From assembly GCA_021292105.1 (NCBI GenBank), contig CM037866.1, positions 8,276,482-8,340,481 of the forward strand: a DNA stretch of 64,000 nucleotides, read 5' to 3'. Under the pieces are notes generated by a model that was not told the DNA's origin, made no database searches, and worked only from the letters and a program-made list of their open reading frames with translations. How positions within the stretch are numbered: position 1 is the stretch's first letter; each line of letters starts with the position of its first letter. This DNA comes from Anadara kagoshimensis. Its lineage: Eukaryota; Mollusca; Bivalvia; Arcoida; Arcidae. The translations under genes and the position numbers were made by a program. Positions 3,311-64,000 of this stretch are shown here, piece after piece.

Positions 3311-4650
3311 CAAGAGGCCCATGGGCCTTATACGCTCACCTGATAACTAATGGCTAGCTGATAGATTTAAAGAAAACATAAATACTAAACCCCAATGAAT
3401 TTTTTCTTTACATGAAAATGATCATTGCATCAATACCTACAACATTCTAATATACATGCCTATACAAAACTTTTATAGTTTTCAAGATAATTAACCATTT
3501 CAGTATTGTTTTCGCATCTGTGACCTTGACCTTTGAACCCATGACCTTTTCCTATACGTCAAAATGATCATTGTATCAATACCTACAACATTCTAATATA
3601 CATGCCTATACAAAAAGTTTATAGTTTTCGAGATAATTAACCATTTCGGTATTGTCTCGCATCTGTGACCTTGACCTTTGAACCCATGACCTTTTTCTAT
3701 ACATCAAAATGATCGTTGTATCAATACCTACAACATTCTAATATACATGCCTATACAAAAAGTTTATAGTTTTCGAGATAATTAAACATTTCCGTATTGT
3801 TTCGCATCTGTGACCTTGACCTTTGAACCCATGACCTCTTTCTGTACATCAAAATGATCGTTGTATCAATACCTACAGCATTCTAATATACATGCCTATA
3901 CAAAAAGTTTATAGTTTTCGAGATAATTAAACATTTCCGTATTGTTTCGCATCTGTGACCTTGACCTTTGAACCCATGACCTTTTTCTATATATCAAAAT
4001 GATCGTTGTATCAATACCTACAACATTCTAATATAAATGCCTATACAAAAAGTTTATAGTTTTCGAGATAAGTAACCATTTTGGTATTGTTTTACATCTG
4101 TGACCTTGACCTTTGAACCCATGACCTTTTTCTATACACCAAAATGATTGTTGTATCAATACCTACAACATTCTAATATACATGCCTATACAAAAAGTTT
4201 ATAGTTTTCGAGATAATAATTATAATCAGAGGTAAAAAAAATTAGGTCACGACCTTCACAATTGACCTTGACCTCAATTTGAAGATACTAACAAGAAGAT
4301 GTCAAAACTGAAAACCCCATGTCATTATCTGGCCAAATAGTCAAGTTATAACAATTTGAAGCTATTTTACGATTTTTTCAAAATTAAATGCAAAAACGCG
4401 TAACCTATTTTTTGTCCGAATTTCACAAAATAAACAAACTATAGGCTAAAGACCCTAGAGAAGCCAAATATCACATCAGATTTTTTCTCTAATCAATACT
4501 TTCGGAGAAGAAGATTTTTTAAGATTTTTGCACCCCTAGGTCACCTTGACCTAGTTATGGTAGCCATGGCAACACCACGAACAAATTTGAATTGCACCGA
4601 CCAAGACATGCATCTGACCAAGTCTCGTTGAAATCTGCCCAGTGGTTCGT

Positions 4651-15000: not shown

Positions 15001-17854
15001 TTCAAATTTAAAAAATTACTGTGACTCTCACTGCATAGGACATGTAGGATCATATCCCAATTGGAAAACAGATCCAGGGGTTTAAAATTATGTTTTGTAA
15101 TGGAAGGTCCAGGACCTTTTTTTTTTTTTTTGACAAGTCCCACATAAAGTTTGGAAAGTTTAATGTCAACATTGAAATAAGGTTTATGTGAAATTATGTT
15201 ATCATATACAAAAAGAAAGATGGTCCTGGTAGAAAACAGCAGGTCCATCAGACTTTACAGTTTAAATATCAAGGGTCCCAATGTCAAATCAGTAGGTCAA
15301 GGACCTCTGACCCAGGAAATTTTGAACCCCTGAAATCCTAGTGTGAGAGGCTATACACATGATACAGGTCATGTGATAAGGTTGGTAGTTTTCTCTACCT
15401 GACCTTTCAGTTTTTTCCAGTATCCATGAACTGACAGCCTCAATTTAAGTGAAACGATCTTGACTATTGTGTAAAATCTCCTTAATCCACTCCACCGTTT
15501 CAGAAATAACTGCCTGGAAAGAATCTTGACTGGGGTGTAAAACTCCATTATTCTACTACATCATCCGAGTAGACTGGTGGCAGTGGCATAGTGGCAAGAA
15601 AATTGTAGCAGGAGACTGGTGGCAAGGTAGAGAAACACCCAAAATCACAAGGACAACAGTATTATCATATCCCTGATCATCACTGTTGGCAGTGGAATAG
15701 TGGCAGGGGAATGCTGGCAGGGGACTTGTGGCAGGGCGATAAAAAAACTTACATGGAATACCAGTAGTGCGAATATCAGCAGTAATGCCACTTGTACTAC
15801 CATAACTAAAAACTGTGTACATACATGTGCTAGCATGATTTCAAATGTTGTCATACCTAAAAATAGTAACAAATTAATGTTGACATACCTAAAAATAGTA
15901 ACAGATTATACGGTTGCCATACCTAAAAATAGTAACAGATTAAAGTTGTCATATCTTATTATGGTTAATTAATGTACAAAATACACTTATTTACTATTAC
16001 AAGTGATTTTTGTATGACAGAAATTTTCACTATTAGGACACATTAAAAAAAATTGCAAAAATCCCCCCAGGATGAAAATTACATTAAGTCATATTTCATA
16101 CACAAAAAGAGAATAACCCTCTATGAAAAAATATTGAGTTTTTCTATCCTACATGGATAACTTATAATGGATTCTAAATTCTTTATAATTTATCTGCTTT
16201 TTTGCCTTCGGGTGAGATTTTCCTCTCCTATAAATCATAATGAATTCTTATAGTCTCATTAACATTCTGATACAAATGAATAACAAACCAAACCTGCGAC
16301 CAAACTTCTGTCTAGCAGACCTTCCTTCTTCTCCATCACAAATGACAAAGTTGTCAGTCCAGTAGCCAGGAAAAAGGTTATACTGAAACATAAATACAGA
16401 CGGATTTCAATTGAGTAATGATGTTTAACATCCAAGCCAAGAATATTTCACTTATATGAAGATGTCACCAGCTAAAGGCAAAGGTGCAGAAATTTTGCCT
16501 GTGCGTTGCACTGATGGCATTATACAGCAGGGTTCTTTTTCAGTATTCGTTTGCATCTGTGACCATGCCCTTTGAATTCATGACCATCATTCATATATCA
16601 AAATTATCTTCATGGCAATACCTACAATATTCTAGTATTGTGCCTTCACAAAACGTTAATAGTTTTTTTTAGAAAATTAACCATTTCAGTATTCGTTTTC
16701 ATCTGTAACTTTGACTCTTGACCCTTATTCATATATCAAAATGATCGTTAGGCCAATACCTACAATATTCTAATATACATGCCTATACAAAAAGGTAATT
16801 GTTTTTTGAGATAATTAACCATTTCAGTATTTGTTTGCATCTGTGACCTTGACCTGAGAACCTATGATCTTCATTCATATATCAAAGGGGACATAACTCT
16901 TTCATTTGTGCCAATCTGTAAGCCCTTCACCTAAACATCATTATTGCCAAATATCGACCAATCAATATACTCCCATAGCAAATATTAGTAAAATATTTGC
17001 AGATGTTTGGAAAACTATCATTCCTGTGCGCCAGCATCATTATATTAATACAGAGCTGCCAATCCTATTTTATGCAATTGCAGGTCCGTCCAAGATCCAC
17101 ACCGCTAAGCTGGCTATACCATTTAGGCCCGGGGAATAATGAAAAAAAAAAAAAAATAGTGCGCTGTTGTGTAATTTCACAGAGAAATGGATACAATCAC
17201 GATTTTGTGATTTTTCACCTGCTACCGGCACAAAATTAATTCTGATTAGACCTTTAGTCCACCCATGTAATAACTCAAATACGACACGATTACATGTGGA
17301 TTCGAGGGGTAATGATGAATACTGCAAGTCCTCAAACTGTATGCTAATTACGGGTCAGTCCACTTCTTGGCGTATCAGTGGGAATTCACGTGTAAATGCG
17401 GGATGAGCCCGCAGGTTGCTGGTCAGTTGGCAGCTCTGTGAATAGCCATATTCAACTTCATTGCAACTTAACTTAAAATTACTGACTATGTACCTAATAC
17501 CTGAAGGAAAAAAGAAAGCAAGGCAGACCCAAAAACACCACGAGGAGAACTTGGGGAGAACTGGAGAAGATGGCACAAGACAGAGACAAGTGGAAAACTC
17601 TAGTCCTTGACCTATGTGACCCTGGGCGTAACAAGGTCTAGGTAGGTAGGTAGTTGGGTATGTACCTGAGTATTATGCCTGGTGCCATAAAATTAGTAAA
17701 ACTTGGATTTTTACTGCCATATATAGGATCCTCTATCTACAAATAAAAATATAATAGGATAAAAATATTATACTCGTTTGGTTTTTTGGCAGGTTATAAT
17801 ACCCAAGGTGAATTCTGATAATGTTTGTTCTAATAACATTGAAAAAAACATGGT

Positions 17855-38800: not shown

Positions 38801-41800
38801 AAACTTGGTCTGAATCATGCCATTTCATGATGTCACTGACACTAGTACGTCATTAGTTGCAGTGAGGCTATTTTGGTACTGTGATGCCGGCCAGGTCGGA
38901 ACATAAAATGCATGACCGGTGATACGTCAATTGTCTGTACTATACAAGCTCACTGCAAACTAAAACACTTTCCAGCCCCTCAATGTTGATGGAAAAAAAT
39001 TGATCGCAGGTGATGTGTTCTTATGATGGTAAACATCTGCGCATAGTTTAAGAATAATTACATACATAACAAATAAACAAACTTGTATTTCTGGCGAAAT
39101 TGTCTAAGTGTGAAAAATTCTGAAATTCTGGAAAAGTCTGGAAAGATAATAATTCTTCAAAATATATCGGATTATACAAACTGATATTCCCTAGAGTACA
39201 ATAACATGAATAAATGGCAAGTTCTCACAATGTTGAACTTTTACAAATTTTCAACAACAAAAAATTTAATTAGACATAACCATGATAAATGAATAGACAT
39301 CAGGACAAAATTGTGTCTAGTGGCAGATGAACAGACAGATGGACGGACAGACAGACAGAAATAAAGATTCCAGGTTATTTCCCCTCCATTCTATGCAGGG
39401 GGTTTAACTGAAGTTAAAACATCTTCTCACCTGAGTTGTTATTCTATGCACTACTGTATTGGATTCTATAATAGGTTCAATAGATGGACAGACAGACAGG
39501 GAGATTCCAGGTTAACCCCCACCCCCCATCCCCACACACACACACAAATTTGTTGCAGGGGGTAAAACTAAAGTTATAACATCTCCTCACCTGAGTAGTA
39601 ATTCTATGTACTATGGTATTAGATTCTATAATAGGTTCAATAGACATACAGACAGACAGGGAGATTCCAGGTTACCCCCCCCCCCCCAACACACACACAC
39701 AAATTTGTTGCAGGGGGTAAAACTAAAGTTATAACATCTCCTCACCTGAGTTGTAATTCTATGTACTACTGTATTGGATTCTATAGATTCAACATCTTCC
39801 CCATATAATTTATCAGTGTGGCACAGTTTCAAGAAAATTGCTTCTAAACTCTGAAAAGAAATACAAGTGGATCTTGTTTTAATTTGCATAAAAAACTTGG
39901 ACAGATCCTAGCATAAGATAATCAGTCAGATTCTAGTGCAAGAATATAAGAATCAATTATGGATATTCATGAAGGATTGGGAAATCTCATCTAACATGTC
40001 TAAAGGGTCGAACATTTCAGTCAGAGACAAGGCTTGACTATCCTACATGGATAAACTCATAGTGATTCTTTCTCTTCTATTTTAATGACAATATTTGGTT
40101 TCTAATACAATTAACATAGACATCGACACCATGTTTGTAAAATCTAACTTTTTTAATCAATGTTCTACTTTAAAACAAGAGGCCCATGGGCCTTAACGCT
40201 CACCTGAGGAACAGTACATATCTTATGCAGAGGTTCAATGGTCAATGACATTAATAAAAGAGAATATCAAAATTTTCAGCAGTAAGGGCCAATAATATGC
40301 AAGTATTTTTGCAAATTAATTATAATAATTATTATAATTATAAGGATGCTATATATAACATATTTAAAGTCTAGCTACAATATATAATATAAACAGCTAA
40401 AACATCTGTATTTTAAAATGTGCATTAGGTTAATACCTACAATATTCCAATATACATGCCTATACAAAGAGTTTATAGTTTTTGAGATAATTAACCATTT
40501 AAGTATTCATTTGCATCTATGACCTTGACCTTTGAACCTATAACCTTCATTCATATATCAAAATGATCAATAGGCCAATACCTACAATATTCTAAAATAC
40601 ATGCCTATACAAAAAGTTTATAGTTTCTGAGATAATTAACCATTTAAGTAGTAGTTTGCATCTATGACCTTGACCTTTGAACCTATGAACTTCATTCATA
40701 TATCAAAATGATCTTGTGCTAATGCCTACAATATTCTAATTTACATGCCCATACAAAAAGTTTATACTTTTTGAGATAATTGACCATTTAAATATTCGTT
40801 CGCAGCTATGACCTTGACCTTTGAACCTATGACCTTCATTCATATATCAATATGATCGTTAGGCCAATGCCTACAATATTCCAATATACAAGCCTATACA
40901 AAAAGTTAATAGTTTTTTGAGATAATTAACCATTTAAGTATTCATTTGCATCTATGACCTTGACCTTTGAACCTATGACTTCATTCATATATCGAAATGA
41001 TCATTAGGCCAATACCTACAATATTCCAATATACATGCCTATACAAAAAGTTTATACTTTTTGAGATAATTAACCATTTAAGTATTCATTTGCATCTATG
41101 ACCTTGACCTTTGAACCTATGACCTTCATTCATATATCGAAATGATTGTTAGGCCAATACCTACAATTTTCCAATATACATGCCTATACAAAAAGTTTAT
41201 AGTTTTTGAGATAATTAACCATTTCAGTACTTGTTTACATCTGTGACCTTGACCTTTGAACCCATGACCTTTATTCATATATCCAAATGACCATTGTGCC
41301 ATTACCTACAATATTCTGATATACATGCCTATACAAAAAATTCATAGTTTTGCAGATAATCAACTATTTTGGTATTCTTGGACATCTGTGACCTTGACCT
41401 TTGAACCCATGACCCTGATCTATGTATCAAAATGATCGTCATGTCAATACCTACAAATAACTGAAAATCCTACGCCATTATCACAAGAAATGTTAAAAAA
41501 ATAGCATTTTTTATCAAAGGTCAAAAACCGGGACATGACCTTGACCTTCGACCTTGACATCAATTGGAAGAAAATTGCAAGACAAGATCAACAGTGAAAA
41601 CTACATACAATTATCTTCAGCCGTTATGAAGTTATAACAATAAATGTCTCATTTTAAAATTACGTTAATTTACGCAAAAAACGTGTAACCCATTTTTCGT
41701 CGAATTTTCATAAAAAACACAATTTTAATGTTCCCAGGTATGCTGAATCCAAATATCCAATCAAAATTTGCCTGCACCTTTTGGTTTCAGAGAAGAAGAT

Positions 41801-44806: not shown

Positions 44807-47800
44807 TGGCTCAGGTGAGCTAAAAAAGTTGAGTCAAAGTTGTTTTAGAGTAATTTCTTTAAATCATTAATAAATTGATATTTAACATAAAAAAAAGTTG
44901 AGTCACCATATCAGCTTTGCGAGCCTCTTCTATGTAATGTGTTGTTATTATAATGGTGGTTTCACTTCCTCCCTGACTGGCTATACTGATTAGATGCTCC
45001 CATATCCTACAATATAAACAATAAACATGTTTTACTTATACACTGCCCTCCATAAATATCATACATTTGTAGTGGACTGGGTAGCTCAGTGGTAGAGCAC
45101 TCGCCTATAGTGGGGGGGTCCAGGGTTCGATCCCCAATCCGACCCTGCTTTATTTCTCTTTCCTGTTACATATGGGGGCTTGTCCGACCATCGGAAGTGG
45201 CTGAACAACAGGTTGGTCCCAGGGTGGAACCTGGTGGTTTCGATTCAAGGGAGTTGAATCAAAAAAAGGAAGGGAGGATTCATAAATGTAGTGGTCTTGG
45301 CAGCTCAGTGGTAGAGCACTCGCCTTTAGTGTGGGAGGTCCTGGGTTTTATCCATGGTCAGGCCCTGCATTTTTCCCTATATATCCCCCTCTCAAACTAG
45401 TTTGCAGGGCTGTATAAAATATTGATAGAAATAGTGGACTTTAGACCTATTGAGGGATCATTTAGGACTAAATAAGTGGTCTTTGCATTAGACAGCTGGA
45501 CTTGATAATAAAATCCATTGGGTATACTTAATCCTGGTTGTTGTAGGCAGGTGAACTTTATACAGAGGTGGACTTTACAGCAGGTCATACTGTATATGAT
45601 AGAAATATGTATGTGTATATAAAACAAGAGGCCCATGGGCCTTAACGCTCACCTGAGGCTAAGTATATATCTCATACAGAGGTTCAATGGTCAATAACAT
45701 TTATTAAAGAGAACTCCTAATTTTCAGCAGTAAGGCAGAATTAAATGCAAGGATTTTTGCAAATTAATCATACCTTGTCCCGAGATTGCTACATATAATA
45801 TATTAATATATTATATATATATATATATTCTAGCTACAAAACATTATTTATAAACAGCTAAAAGTATGAAACTATGACCTTCCTCTATATATCAAAATGA
45901 TTGTTAGGCCATTACCTACAATATTGGAATATACATGCCTATACAAAAAGTATATAGTTTTTGAGATAATTAACCATTTCAGTATCCTTTCGCATCTGTG
46001 ACCTTGACCTTTGAATCCATGACCTTAATCTATATATCAAAATGATCGTTAAATCAAAACCTACAATGTTCTAATATACATGTTTGTACAAAAAGTCTAT
46101 AGTTTTTGAGATAATTAACCATTTCAGTATTCTTTTGCCTTTGTGACCTTGACCTTTGAACCCATGACCTTAATCTATATATCAAAATGATCGTTAAATC
46201 AAAACCTCCAATATTGTAATATACATGTCTATACAAAAAGCTTATAGTTTTTTCGATAATTAACCATTTCAGTATTTTTCCGCATCTGTGACCTTGACCT
46301 CTGAACCCATGACATTAATCTATATATCAAAATGATCATTAAATCAAAACCTACAATGTTCTAATATACATGTTTGTACAAAAAGTCTATAGTTTTGAGA
46401 TAATTAACCATTTCAGTATTCTTTTGCCTTTGTGACCTTGACCTTTGAACCCATGACCTTAATCTATATATCAAAATGATCGTTAAATCAAAACCTCCAA
46501 TATTCTAATATACATGTCTATACAAAAAGTTAATAGTTTTCGAGATAATTAACCATTTTGGTACACTTTCACATCTGTGACCTTGACCTTTGAACCCATG
46601 AACTTAATCTATATTTAAAAATGATCGTTAAATCAATTCCTACAATATTGTAATATACATGTCTATACAAAAAGCTTATAGTTTTTTCGATAATTAACCA
46701 TTTCAGTATTTTTCCGCATCTGTGACCTTGACCTCTGAACCCATGACATTAATCTATATATCAAAATGATCATTAAATCAAAACCTACAATGTTCTAATA
46801 TACATGTTTGTACAAAAAGTCTATAGTTTTTGAGATAATTAACCATTTCAGTATTCTTTTGCCTTTGTGACCTTGACCTTTGGACCCATGACCTTAATCT
46901 ATATATCAAAATGATCGTTAAATCAAAACCTCCAATATTCTAATATACATGTCTATACAAAAAGTTAATAGTTTTCGAGATAATTAACCATTTTGGTACA
47001 CTTTCACATCTGTGACCTTGACCTTTGAACCCATGAACTTAATCTATATTTAAAAATGATCGTTAAATCAATTCCTACAATATTGTAATATACATGTCTA
47101 TACAAAAAGCTTATAGTTTTTTCGATAATTAACCATTTCAGTATTTTTCCGCATCTGTGACCTTGACCTTTGAACCCATGACATTAATCTATATATCAAA
47201 ATGATCGTTAAATCAAAACCCACAATATTCTAATATACATGTTTATACAAAAAGTTTATAGTTTTTGAGATAATTAACCATTTCAGTATTCTTTCGCATT
47301 TGTGACCTTGACCTTTAAACCCATGACATTAATCTATATATCAAAATGATCATTGAATAAAAACCTACAATATTTGAATATACATGTTTATACAAAAAGT
47401 TAAAAGTTTTCGAGATAATTAACCATTTAGGTATTGATTTGCATCTGTGACCTTGACCTTTGAACTCATGACCTTAATCTACATATCAAAATGACCATTG
47501 TGCCATTACCTACAATATTGTAATACACATGTCTATACAAAAAGTTAATAGTTTTGCAGATAATCAACTATAACGGTAATAGTTGTGCATCCTTGACCTT
47601 AACCTTTGAACTTATGACCTTGATCTATGTATCAAAATGATCATCATGTCAATACCTACAATTAACTGAAAATCCCATGCCACTATCACCTGAAATGTTT
47701 ATAAAATAGCATTTTTTATCAAAGGTCAAAATCAGGGACATGACCTTGACCTTTGACCTTGACATCTTTTTGAAGAAAATAGCAAGACAAGATCAACAGT

Positions 47801-59249: not shown

Positions 59250-59490
59250 TCATGCATGTCGGAGTGGAGTAATGGTTTTTACGCCCCCAATCACAGAGGC
59301 CTGTTTCATAATATTTTTTTCAGTTCCAAAATACCCATAAGTACGTGGTATTTTTTTTTTTTAAAAATACGAGACTGACCACTGTGGCACCAATAAAGTT
59401 TATTTAAATATCGAGACGGTCAATTTATGGATGAAAGAGTGGGAAAGAGTAATGGTGTCTTGCGCCAAAGTCACGACCCTTTTACATAAA
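59250..59490 (+). repeat. Left remnant of the 80-bp satellite
   Basis: About two diverged units ('GAGTGGAGTAATGG', 'AAGAGTAATGGTGTCTTGCG') lie left of the 3.77-kb element, matching the array to its right. Confidence 0.8.
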
Positions 59491-61369
59491 TGGGTCATTC
59501 TCAAAAAATGTAGAAATTCATGTCACCAGCAATAAACATGCAGATATGTTTTAAATTTTATCAATTTAAAGGCTAAAATAGTTTGTACAGGTTCGGAACT
59601 GTAAAATGTTCTTAAAATATTTGATAAATAGTTATACTTTATAAAATTATGTAATCATTTGAGGTGTGATTCTGTTACTTTGTTACTGTCTTTCTACACA
59701 AGTTTTTTGTTTGTCATCAAAATACTTTATTTAATTGTTGATTTATAAATCAAATTTAGATTTTGGCCATTAGATAATCACGTATACTGACTAAATATGA
59801 CGAATTATTCAGTTTAATATGTCAACGAATGATATTTTTCTTGGATAAATAGTGTGTACAATGCTGCACAGTCCTTGGTGTTACCAAACACTAAAAGTGC
59901 ATATATACGAGTTACTGCTCTTTGCATATAAAAGATGGTATATGCTCCCTAGTCTGCAGACATCATGTATTCAGCATCTGGACAAAAATCAAACATCAGT
60001 AAAAACGTAATTAGTAAAAATTGATAAAGATTAGTTTACATTTAACAGTAGATTTATTTTAAGTCTGTAGTGTTACCGTTGTGTATACAATACCAAGAAA
60101 GAAATAAGAAAAATACACCTTTCTAAAGTTTTGGCAACGTTCAAAATTCAGATGTAGCATGTGTTTATGCTGAAGGAGGCATTATTTTTTAAACTATGCG
60201 TTAATATCTGAAAATATGTCCATTGTGTAACTGTCCTTGGTATTACTGTAGAAATTGGTTATTCCAGAGACAAATTTAGTGTTACCACAGACATTAAAAC
60301 TAATTAAGTGGATTTTTTGTAATTTTGTCAAAAATATTGAAAACAAATGTTTAAAAGACATTGGCACACCTTTAGTTGTACAATTATGGTGAAAGAAAAT
60401 ATTAGATGACCGGTTATCATACTGTTATTCTATTCTGGTTACACCAATGACTGAATACGGTAACACCAGGGACTTTTATTTTATAGATTGTTCCTATACC
60501 TAGTAGAAATTAGCAAACAATAACTATGTATATTTTGAGCAATAGCAACTGACCAATCCTTTAGTTATAATTCGTCGAACTACAGAAATATATGATGAGA
60601 ATTTTTAGATACACCAAAGACAAAAATGTAACACCAGGGACTTTATATTAATTATACTTTTAATACTATATGCACTGTCAGAAATACGTAAGTTTCCTTT
60701 ATTTTGACTGATCTTTTGAATGTAAATAAGGTTCTTGGATTGGTCTTTTGCTGTAAAAGTAATAAATGATTTGTATATTCCTAAATTTTGAAATGTTAGT
60801 TACACCAGTGACACAATTAGTAACACCATGGACTACTGGTATATATTTTAAATTGTTTTATGTAATACATACAATCTGAGTTATATCACGGTGGCTATCA
60901 CATATTCCAGATTCATATATGGGTCTTCGCTTACCATGAACAATTGATTTTGCGCTATGTTGTCAGAGATATCATATTGAAAATGAAGTAACACCAGAGT
61001 CAAACAAGTAAAGCCACCGAGTTGTTCACAGACAAGATATAATAAGAAAGAGAAAGAATGTAATAGATTTACGACAGAGTAAAACAGATCCTTAGGGTGG
61101 ACCTAAAAAGCTAAAACAAATAAAACCACAGTAAGTACGCAGACAGTAGGACACACAGTAGATATTCAGACAGACGCGTCGTTGCGAAGGGGCATTCAAT
61201 ATTTAAGACAGATGCACTGAAAATAGACCTACTACAGAATTTGATACAAAATTAGGAGAATTTGTACAGACCGATGACTCCACAACAGATGCGATGAAAT
61301 ATGTGGCTACACGAGACCAAAGGACATATTTAGACAGATCAAACAATAGTTGAACAGACTGACCTTTTA

Positions 61370-61960
61370 GTAGACTCTATGTCAGATATAGCAGGCGACA
61401 CTATAATAGAATTGGTGACAGATAAAGCTGCAGATAAACAGATAGATTACCCTTTAGCACAACTCAGATATAGTTCCAGATAGACAGACAGACAGACAGA
61501 TAACCCTATAGCAGACCCAGTGACAGATATAGTTACAGATAGACAGACAGTTGACCCTATAGCAGACTCAGTGTCAGATGTAGCTACAGATAGACAGACA
61601 AATGACCCTATAGCAAAGTCAGTGACATATATAGCTACAGATAGACAGGCAGATGACCATATAAAACTGAGTGACAGATATAGTCACGGATAAACAACAT
61701 ATTTCTCTATAACAAACTCAGTGACAGATATAGCTACCGGTACAGATATATTTTCCCTATAGCAGACTCGGTGACAGATATAGCTACAGATAGACAGATT
61801 TTCCTATATAAGACTCATTGACAGATATAGCTACTGCGAAACAGACAGATGAAAGCAGACTCATTGGCAGATATAGATACTGAAACATAGATGACCCTAA
61901 AGCAGACCCATTGACAGATATAGCTACCGAGAAGCAGACATAACCCAACAGCAGGTTTGA
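61370..61960 (+). repeat. CAGA-rich degenerate tandem array
   Basis: About eight to ten units of 50-75 bp with 'GACAGATATAGCTACAGATA', 'GACAGACAGATGACCCTATA' and 'GCAGACTCAGT'. No stable frame. Confidence 0.85.
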
Positions 61961-62181
61961 TGATTGATATAGCTGCTGATACTTTCGTTAAATCCTACTG
62001 TGATTGTTGATGTTTGCTACATTTTGAAATTTCACAGTCAATATTCTTTCAAATAATACCGAGGCGGTCAGTTTCTGGAGGAAACCAGAGTGCCTGGTCC
62101 GAGTTGGATTTAAACCTGTGAGATATGAAGCACTGTGATCTGTGAGCGTGCACTTTAAGTGTACTTTAGCATTTTTATTTG

Positions 62182-62312
62182 GTAGATCTGCCATATACCA
62201 CTTTTTTAATTTAATAATAAAATACACTCAAAAAGTGGTATATGACAGTATCATATACCACTTTTTGAATGTATTTTATGATTAAAAAAGTGGTATACGA
62301 CAGATCAACTGT
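62182..62312. repeat. Compound palindrome
   Basis: Arms of about 63 bp ('CATATACCACTTTTT', 'AAAATACA.TCAAAAAGTGG') are mutually inverted and each contains a smaller inverted repeat of TATACCACTTTTT. It lies inside the right half of the 3.77-kb element. Confidence 0.85.
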
Positions 62313-63258
62313 CTTTGGTGTTGTCTGTGGTGTTACCAATATATAAAATGACATCAAATGGTACAAATTTTACAAGGAACTATTATATTTCAATCGTTTA
62401 TTTATTTATTTTAATTTACTAGGTAAATCGCGAGTTTTAAGATAAAATAAAAGATCATCAAATCAAAATACTACAATATTGTCCCTGGTGTTACAAAGGT
62501 GTCTCTGGTGTTAACAAAACAATTGGTAAACATTGGATAATCTTGAGGAATGTAAATTTTTCTTTTCAAATATCTGTTTAAACTCCATTTTTGAGAGATA
62601 GAATATAATGTAAGATGTATTGTCTTACTTTTGTTCCCCAACACGCATTGGAATTTCAGTATTTTAAATGGCTGTCTTTGGTGTTATTCTTTTTGTCTTT
62701 GGTATAACTTCTAAATGTCTGTGGTGTTGCCATGGTCTATTCATTCATTAATTTGCACAATGTAAATAAATTTTGTTAACTTATAATTAATTATAAATTA
62801 CGTATTAAGTACTTTTCTATGAACCAGTAAAGAACGCGTGCCACAAAAAAGGCAGTAACTTATTATAAAATTCCGTTCTTGCAATATTTTTAGTTTATCA
62901 TTTCGAGATTTTAAGATTGTTATTTAAGTGTTAAAATGAAAAATACAGTCTCAAATTTTAAATGATATGTCAGCTAGTTTGTTATTCATGTATAGAAATA
63001 GGTTTTATATTTAAAATCTACTTAAATATAGATATTTTCAAAAACATAAATGATGGTTACTCCAGAGGACATTATGAAGCACAATTTTAAATTCAATTTG
63101 ATATTCTGTCAAAAAGAACCAATGTCTTGTGTGCATATTTCTCAGAATGAAATTTTATGTTTCAAATATTGATTTCGAACCAATGAAATGACGGGATTCA
63201 ATTATTTTTTTATCGTTATTTTGGTTTGTGGAATTTCTACATTTTTTGAGAATGACCC

Positions 63259-64000
63259 TTATATCGAGACAGCCAAATCATGGATGGTGGAGTGGGGAAG
63301 AGTAATGGTGTCTTGTGCCAAAGCCACGACCCTTTCACTTATATCGAGATAGCCAAATCATGGGTGGTGGAGTGGGGAAGAGTAATGGTGTCTTGTGCCA
63401 AAGTCACGACCCTTTCACTTATATCGAGATAGCCAAATCATGGATGGTGTAGTGGGGTAGAGTAATGGTGTCTTGTGCCAAAGTCACGACCCTTTCACTT
63501 ATATCTAGACAGCCAAATCATGGATGGTGGAGTGGGGAAGAGTAATGGTGTCTTGTGCCAAAGTCACGACCCTTTTACTTATATCTAGACATCCAAATCA
63601 TGGATGGTAGAGTGGGGAAGAGTAATGATGTCTTGTGCCAAAGTCACGACCCTTTTACTTATATCGAGATAGCCAAATCATGGATGGTGGAGTGGGGAAG
63701 AGTAATGGTGTCTTGTGCCAAAGTCACGACCCTTTCACTTATATCGAGACAGCCAAATCATGGATGGTGGAGTGGGGTAGAGTAATGGTGTCTTGTGCCA
63801 AAGTCACGACCCTTTTACTTATATCGAGACAGCCAAATCATGGGTGGTGTAGTGGGGTAGAGTAATGGTGTCTTGCGCCAAAGTCACGACCCTTTCACTT
63901 ATATCGAGACAGCCAAATCATGAATGGTGGAGTGGGGAAGAGTAATGGTGTCTTGTGCCAAAGTCACGACCCTTTTACTTATATCGAGACAGCCAAATCA
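63259..64000 (+). repeat. 80-bp satellite, nine units or more, running off the window
   Basis: Unit 'ATATCGAGACAGCCAAATCA', 'TGGATGGTGGAGTGGGGAAG', 'AGTAATGGTGTCTTGTGCCA', 'AAGTCACGACCCTTTTACTT'. Copies differ at a few positions only. The true length cannot be seen. Confidence 0.96.

Follow-up and report, generated by a model that had tools for sequence, protein, structure and literature searches.

The window (the whole stretch of DNA that was analysed, 64,000 nucleotides) carries at 59492-63258 a non-autonomous, internally deleted cut-and-paste DNA transposon of a young family, bounded by the perfect 28-bp terminal inverted repeats (TIRs) that a sequence-only reading had already reported. 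Its features are given below, where the sites are occurrences of the motif described further on, L069 is a longer coding relative and family B is a related family in the same genome.

59492..63258, + strand: non-autonomous transposon copy, 3767 bp, with paired perfect 28-bp TIRs
59492..59519, + strand: left TIR, 28 bp, perfect inverted repeat
59870..60246, − strand: outer left block of four outward-pointing sites found by weight matrix (59870-59884, 60062-60076, 60217-60231, 60232-60246), at the same positions in L069 and family B
60258-60272 and 60279-60293, + strand: first two inward-pointing sites (weight matrix)
60438..61002, + strand: inner left inward-pointing pairs 60438/60460, 60608/60628 and 60799/60820, and a single site at 60988 (matrix)
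61278..61981, + strand: 51-bp tandem array, probably a decayed remnant of the coding repeat in the second frame of L069
62188..62305, no strand: nested palindromic insertion (~120 bp), in the young-copy consensus and absent from L069, just inside the innermost right sites
62310..62730, − strand: inner right block of seven inward-pointing sites (62310, 62322; 62480, 62500; 62673, 62694, 62716; weight matrix)
63056..63070, + strand: outer right outward-pointing site GTTACTCCAGAGGAC, found by eye and missed by the matrix
63231..63258, − strand: right TIR, 28 bp, perfect inverted repeat

The terminal 28-mer, searched with up to three mismatches in the 1.1-Gb genome, gave 86 forward and 95 reverse matches, against none in either direction for the same 28-mer read backwards, and from these 181 matches the copy number of the family is about 90. 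Among the 100 matches listed (181 in all), 88 formed 44 head-to-head pairs and 12 were single; these 44 listed pairs span 3633-8065 bp (median 3825 bp), with none shorter than 3633 bp. Forty of them were retrieved for copy analysis. Three (L034, L061 and L064) were left out of the consensus and of the site-retention and target-site duplication (TSD) counts because their flanks are the same as those of another copy, and L065, which has a 2-kb size excess, was left out of the consensus alignment. Exact TSDs of at least 4 bp were present at 32 of 37 loci (4 bp at 30 and 6 bp at two) and absent from the other five; they are 86% A+T, and 11 of the 32 are ATAT. Two marks of cut-and-paste transposition, TIRs (perfect over 28 bp) and a TSD of fixed length (32/37 loci), are thus found here. 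In the 35 aligned copies the left ends are 97.6-99.5% identical to the consensus and the right ends likewise, with one copy at 87.6%. This identity, together with the exact TSDs, shows that the family has been recently active, as the sequence-only reading had supposed from the identical termini. One of the five loci that lack an exact TSD is the window copy (AAAT/TTAT), which abuts an 80-bp tandem array (window 63258-64000) and has one similar 84-bp unit on its left flank (59408-59491). L061, 290 kb away (G000:C10:8626567-8630337), is 99.8% identical to the window copy and has the same 40-bp flanks, so the window copy is part of a duplication.

The search for an autonomous copy that had been proposed succeeded in part: L069 is a coding relative of greater length (8065 bp, TSD TAAC) that shares the 28-bp TIR, but its ends are only about 80% identical to the young-copy consensus and its frame is broken. 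Among the TIR-sharing copies examined, none was recognised as the recent source of the young copies. The first frame of L069 encodes a putative transposase of 822 residues with a candidate D-D-E triad (D492, D575 and E608 of P0001) that is conserved between the L069 and L071 proteins; the second frame overlaps the first in another reading frame and has an OTU-like signature, 17-residue repeats and a stop near its end. The OTU-like domain scored 16 bits in Pfam against a cut-off of 23.3, and neither protein had any other credible match in Pfam, NCBIfam or the PDB, including a fold or family match that would support a DDE core in the transposase. A genome search with the L069 protein returned 60 matches, down to 28% identity. 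There was no relative among six stretches matching L069 peptide patterns, and a 20-mer from the end had no match in viral contigs.

hAT elements make 8-bp TSDs, and CACTA/EnSpm elements have CACTA-type termini with TSDs of 2-3 bp. The 4-bp TSDs found here (30 loci, with two of 6 bp) do not fit the former, and the GGGTC ends together with the 4-bp TSD do not fit the latter, so that the analogy with these two groups drawn by the sequence-only reading stands as a comparison of how the ends may work but falls as a class assignment. Ginger1, in the passages of PMC2836005 cited here, has TGTNR termini and CCGG or CCGT as TSD; the present ends are GGGTC or GAGTC, and neither TSD occurs among the 32. 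The likeness to Ginger1 lies in the OTU-domain transposase and the 4-bp TSD given in the same passages, with the OTU score here below threshold. The TTAA-specific TSD of Kolobok and piggyBac, from which the KolobokP lineage differs (PMC9587614, in part), was found in 0/32 cases, and Academ, with a 3-bp TSD according to the cited part of PMC5199201, does not match the 4-bp TSDs. Sola2 is described in the cited part of PMC3627910 as having AT-rich 4-bp TSDs (AWWT, ATAT, AAAT, ATTT) and short TIRs; it resembles the present family in both respects, although the fit, made from this description, is by the TSD alone and the passages concerned mention neither an OTU domain nor site arrays.

With a weight matrix for the motif GTAACACCANNGACA, the window element has 20 sites (20 shuffles averaged 0.25) and L069 has 22 (shuffled sequence averaged 1.35). 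The word TAACACCAGGGAC, with up to three mismatches, occurs 32 times in the window (12.5 expected; 0/100 shuffles reach 32), and 16 of these occurrences lie inside the 3.8-kb element. In family A, that of the window element and L069, the sites are confined to the outer 1.55 kb on the left and the outer 0.95 kb on the right, with one weak interior exception in L069. In the window element the two sites of a pair usually lie 20-22 bp from each other, and the pairs recur at about 170-210 bp, so both the pairing and the recurrence at 170-190 bp that had been noticed at first sight are real. Steps between sites of the same orientation within a cluster are mostly 18-22 bp, with seven of 12-16 bp, and those of at least 18 bp average 20.6 bp. 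With cluster centres grouped by hand and one 367-bp interval of family E excluded, 22 intervals between clusters have a mean of 192 bp (sd 13), some of them being 167-219 bp. The arrangement has two directions at both ends, the outer sites pointing outward and the inner ones inward. The four outer left sites have their GAC anchors at element positions 381, 573, 728 and 743, the last two forming a four-site group with the inward sites at 60258 and 60279, and the nine left inward sites, in the opposite orientation, run from 779 to 1509. On the right the single outer site (63056-63070) lies 190 bp from the end, is unchanged in L069 and is found at the same place in families B and C. The sequence-only reading had the motifs facing the nearer end throughout, which does not hold, as the outer sites and the inner ones have opposite orientations. 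Within one family the left layout does not resemble the right (1/8 and 2/9 sites matched). By eye, all five families (L069, L071, L074, L073 and L075) also have a TGTC word immediately interior to the terminal repeat, some 29-41 bp from the left end; it is possibly a terminal half-site of the motif.

Motifs and spacing are retained in the other copies, whose loss would have spoken against the sequence-only reading: all eight outer-left sites are kept (within 10 bp) in 34 of 36 copies and all seven right sites in 32 of 36. The left exceptions, in which the sites are shifted, are L048 (a small deletion) and L065 (whose size excess is near that end); those on the right are L036, L037, L057 and L067. 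Interior sites number none in 32/36 copies, one in three and 13 in one, presumably L065 with its left end displaced. Conservation is higher in motif columns than in the rest, with 94.8% against 78.2% on the left and 95.1% against 84.1% on the right.

Families in this one genome share related ends, a frame resembling a transposase with an OTU-like domain after it, and the two-way layout, but each has its own motif: GTAACACCANNGACA in A, TGTTACTGGAAAGACA in B, GGTAACAGGAATGACA in C, CGGTACTGAC in D and TAACGTATYTGAC in the more distant family E. The family-specific sites are 15-16 bp long and uniform within a family, and 4-bp TSDs are seen in A and B. Family B is represented by L071 (6650 bp, TSD ATAC/ATAC), which has one uninterrupted frame of 1405 residues that shares 42% identity with the L069 transposase. 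The TIR of B is found at 10 exact places, and its end pattern gave 5+8 matches against 0+3 for the reversed control. L072, another member of family B, was given no independent weight. The end of family D occurs at eight places (reversed control 0). That of C, with 9+10 matches, is no more frequent than its reversed control (13+11), so only its seven matches with up to two mismatches were used, six of them beside a transposase match. The right end of family C (L077), an imperfect TIR match with an unconfirmed TSD, has four sites spaced by 20 bp, with an outer site of opposite orientation. The E transposase, from the genome search with the L069 protein, is about 29% identical. A second copy placed the end of E 10 bp further out than had been assumed, giving, by arithmetic, sites at 400, 593, 762 and 777; the earlier end was used in the matrix, layout, interval and periodicity comparisons, and because it had been guessed, E is kept out of base-level claims. 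L076, tried as a further family, was not used, since its end matched nothing well and it had a single, weakly repeated word. Genome-wide, the pair pattern of A had 211+187 matches (control 11+39), many of the 100 listed lying in one satellite, and that of E 2+3 (control 0+0). The pattern of D had 9+2 (control 2+38), most of the nine in one repeat on C6, and that of C 66+53, below its control of 111+121, so only the matches at C elements were used.

Despite the different motifs the sites lie at nearly the same positions. Aligned on GAC, the left anchors of L069 and B are 381/381, 573/572, 728/728, 743/744, 778/778, 799/799, 963/962 and 985/981, all in the same orientations, so that 8/8 L069 sites in the first 1020 bp agree within 4 bp; B has an extra left site at 1001. 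On the right, 6/7 sites of L069 and 4/7 of the window copy agree with B within 5 bp. Random placement of the B clusters reached the L069 agreement in none of 5000 trials at either end, and circular shifts reached it in 0.5% (left) and 0.2% (right), near-zero shifts reproducing the match. The gap from the outer right site to the next sites is 351 bp in A, 349 in B and 348 in C, and the distance of the outer site from the end is 190, 191 and ~189 bp, respectively. The left intervals of C (189, 165, 15, 34, 21, 170, 21) follow those of B (191, 156, 16, 34, 21, 163, 19), with an offset that grows from 7-8 to 25 bp, and those of D (347, 15, 35, 20) follow A (347, 15, 35, 21) with an offset of 9-10 bp, apart from a weak D site at 133 that has no counterpart. 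Compared with A or B, five or six sites of C or D match at a tolerance of 10 and 0-2 at a tolerance of 3, and some of the tolerance-10 matches of C link non-corresponding members of a pair. In family E the first four sites are kept and the four-site group is missing. Matrix matches below 13 bits (D 579, B 3066, L069 2884 and three weak ones in E) were left out of this comparison.

Such agreement might reflect common descent only, with indels rare here and the spacing under no selection. Shared descent does contribute to the A/B layout, since a slight similarity remains between the left sites (35% identity against 29% in shifted alignments); on the right the intervening sequence is at random level (32% in both) and yet six of the seven L069 sites match. 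Over positions 1-800 on the left the consensus differs from L069 by one indel per 134 substitutions, and in random walks at this lowest ratio eight sites stayed within 4 bp in 8-18% of runs, which speaks for descent. However, in this stretch the young copies carry 21 distinct indels for 161 distinct substitutions (Fisher p 7e-5 against the L069 contrast), and at seven indels per 100 substitutions the sites stayed in place in 0.02% of runs. The same difference is seen further in on the left (800-1560; 12 indels per 171 substitutions long-term against 40 per 206 in young copies, p 0.003) and at the right end (10 per 135 against 47 per 226, p 0.003), although the right end does not have the near absence of indels of the outer left. 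Long-term divergence shows fewer indels per substitution than the young copies do, and those that arise have therefore been lost over time; constraint seems to have produced the low long-term ratio, and we consider unselected descent improbable.

We regard it as probable, from the sequence comparisons, that the arrays are transposase-binding sites whose geometry is selected while their letters co-evolve with the transposase of each family. Because families in one nucleus use different motifs at the same positions, each set would be bound by the family's own transposase, and because the motif differs as a set between families an element-encoded protein fits better than a host factor. Regulatory DNA often has clustered sites, which could be taken to favour a host factor, but the change of motif at the same positions within one genome makes this very improbable. 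The observation made in the sequence-only reading is thus confirmed in part, and its interpretation partly supported, the motif differences between families pointing to the transposase binding that it proposed. The transposase would bind probably as dimers, as suggested by the 20-21-bp spacing of pairs, which corresponds to two helical turns. Before excision a number of occupied clusters, each at a set distance from the cleavage site, would be gathered into a large end complex. As the ladder is fixed, the contacts of this complex may extend to about 1 kb from the cleavage site; its defined shape would constrain the spacing, and the motif letters would drift along with the DNA-binding domain. 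Alternatively the sites could be targets of a repressor encoded by the element, or be used by the transposase promoter, the layout being one for transcription and not for excision. In L069 and L071 the left arrays do precede the transposase frame, but an equally rich array is found at the right end, downstream of the coding region, and the left array is kept in 34/36 mostly non-coding copies; a role in transcription as the reason for the layout seems to us quite unlikely.

The ~190-bp step suggests that one nucleosome may lie between successive occupied linkers. A stronger form of the transposase-binding reading, which we hold possible but rather unlikely, would make the step a nucleosome core plus a linker holding a site pair, with the arrays positioning nucleosomes or using the host repeat length and the end complex assembled on chromatin. 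The mean of 192 bp (sd 13) over 22 intervals is consistent with this, none of 100,000 random placements was as even as the seven left clusters of L069, and a pair footprint of ~36 bp plus 147 bp comes, by arithmetic, close to the step. Periodicity of dinucleotides at 10 bp exceeds that of 98% of window segments in three of seven end segments but not in the other four, and one of the three (E) was measured from the end placed 10 bp off; the intervals that range over 167-219 bp and the grouping of clusters by hand also count against it. The cluster positions have no consistent helical phase, only the steps within clusters being near two turns. The full picture, in which dimers on linkers ~190 bp apart would set an end complex over defined nucleosomes, so that geometry is the conserved signal and the letters turn over with each transposase, we put forward tentatively and think unlikely as a whole.

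Several transposase sites in an asymmetric, fixed arrangement are found at each end of the bacterial elements phage Mu and Tn7, which are much shorter and without a repeated 190-bp step. In Hermes (hAT) subterminal repeats are bound by BED domains in a rigid pattern over about the first 50 bp, and binding by auxiliary transposases at the repeats further in is called unlikely (PMC10368747, in the part cited); the likeness, as far as that part goes, lies in short repeated sites inside the ends, their rigid placement relative to the TIR near the left tip and the asymmetry of the ends, while the pattern here reaches ~1 kb with a 190-bp step and is common to families with different motifs. Galileo (P superfamily) has THAP sites ~70, 561-577 and 701-718 bp from the end within long TIRs, for which its authors suggest a higher-order complex (PMC3688188, in the part cited). 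It shares with the present families the possession of several transposase-binding sites, here putative and drawn from sequence, but its sites are few, two of them inside tandem repeats of the long TIR, and a conserved ladder across families as found here goes unmentioned in the cited part of that paper. In the literature searched, which was covered in part, we recognised no description of a subterminal geometry conserved at the base level over ~1 kb. The usual picture of subterminal transposase sites is one of loose clusters adding avidity, whereas here positions are kept to a few bp over ~1 kb while flanks and motif change. If the binding is true, the number, order and distance of transposase subunits in the end complex could be read from sequence; the families would be a natural experiment in which a DNA-binding domain co-evolves with about 20 sites at once, and they offer a test of whether transposition uses nucleosome spacing.

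Elsewhere in the genome, satellite-like arrays with units of 20 or 25 bp contain motif-like words (ACACCAGTGAC; GTAACAGGTCTGAC) at G000:C2:63049139-63053868, C1:46689472-46691425 and C11:25512951-25513263, and these satellites have perhaps grown out of such transposon ends. The window also holds arrays of ~138-145-bp units with shared wording at 3401-4217, 40415-41456 and 45867-47662, with shorter relatives at 16538 and 30583 (five places in all).
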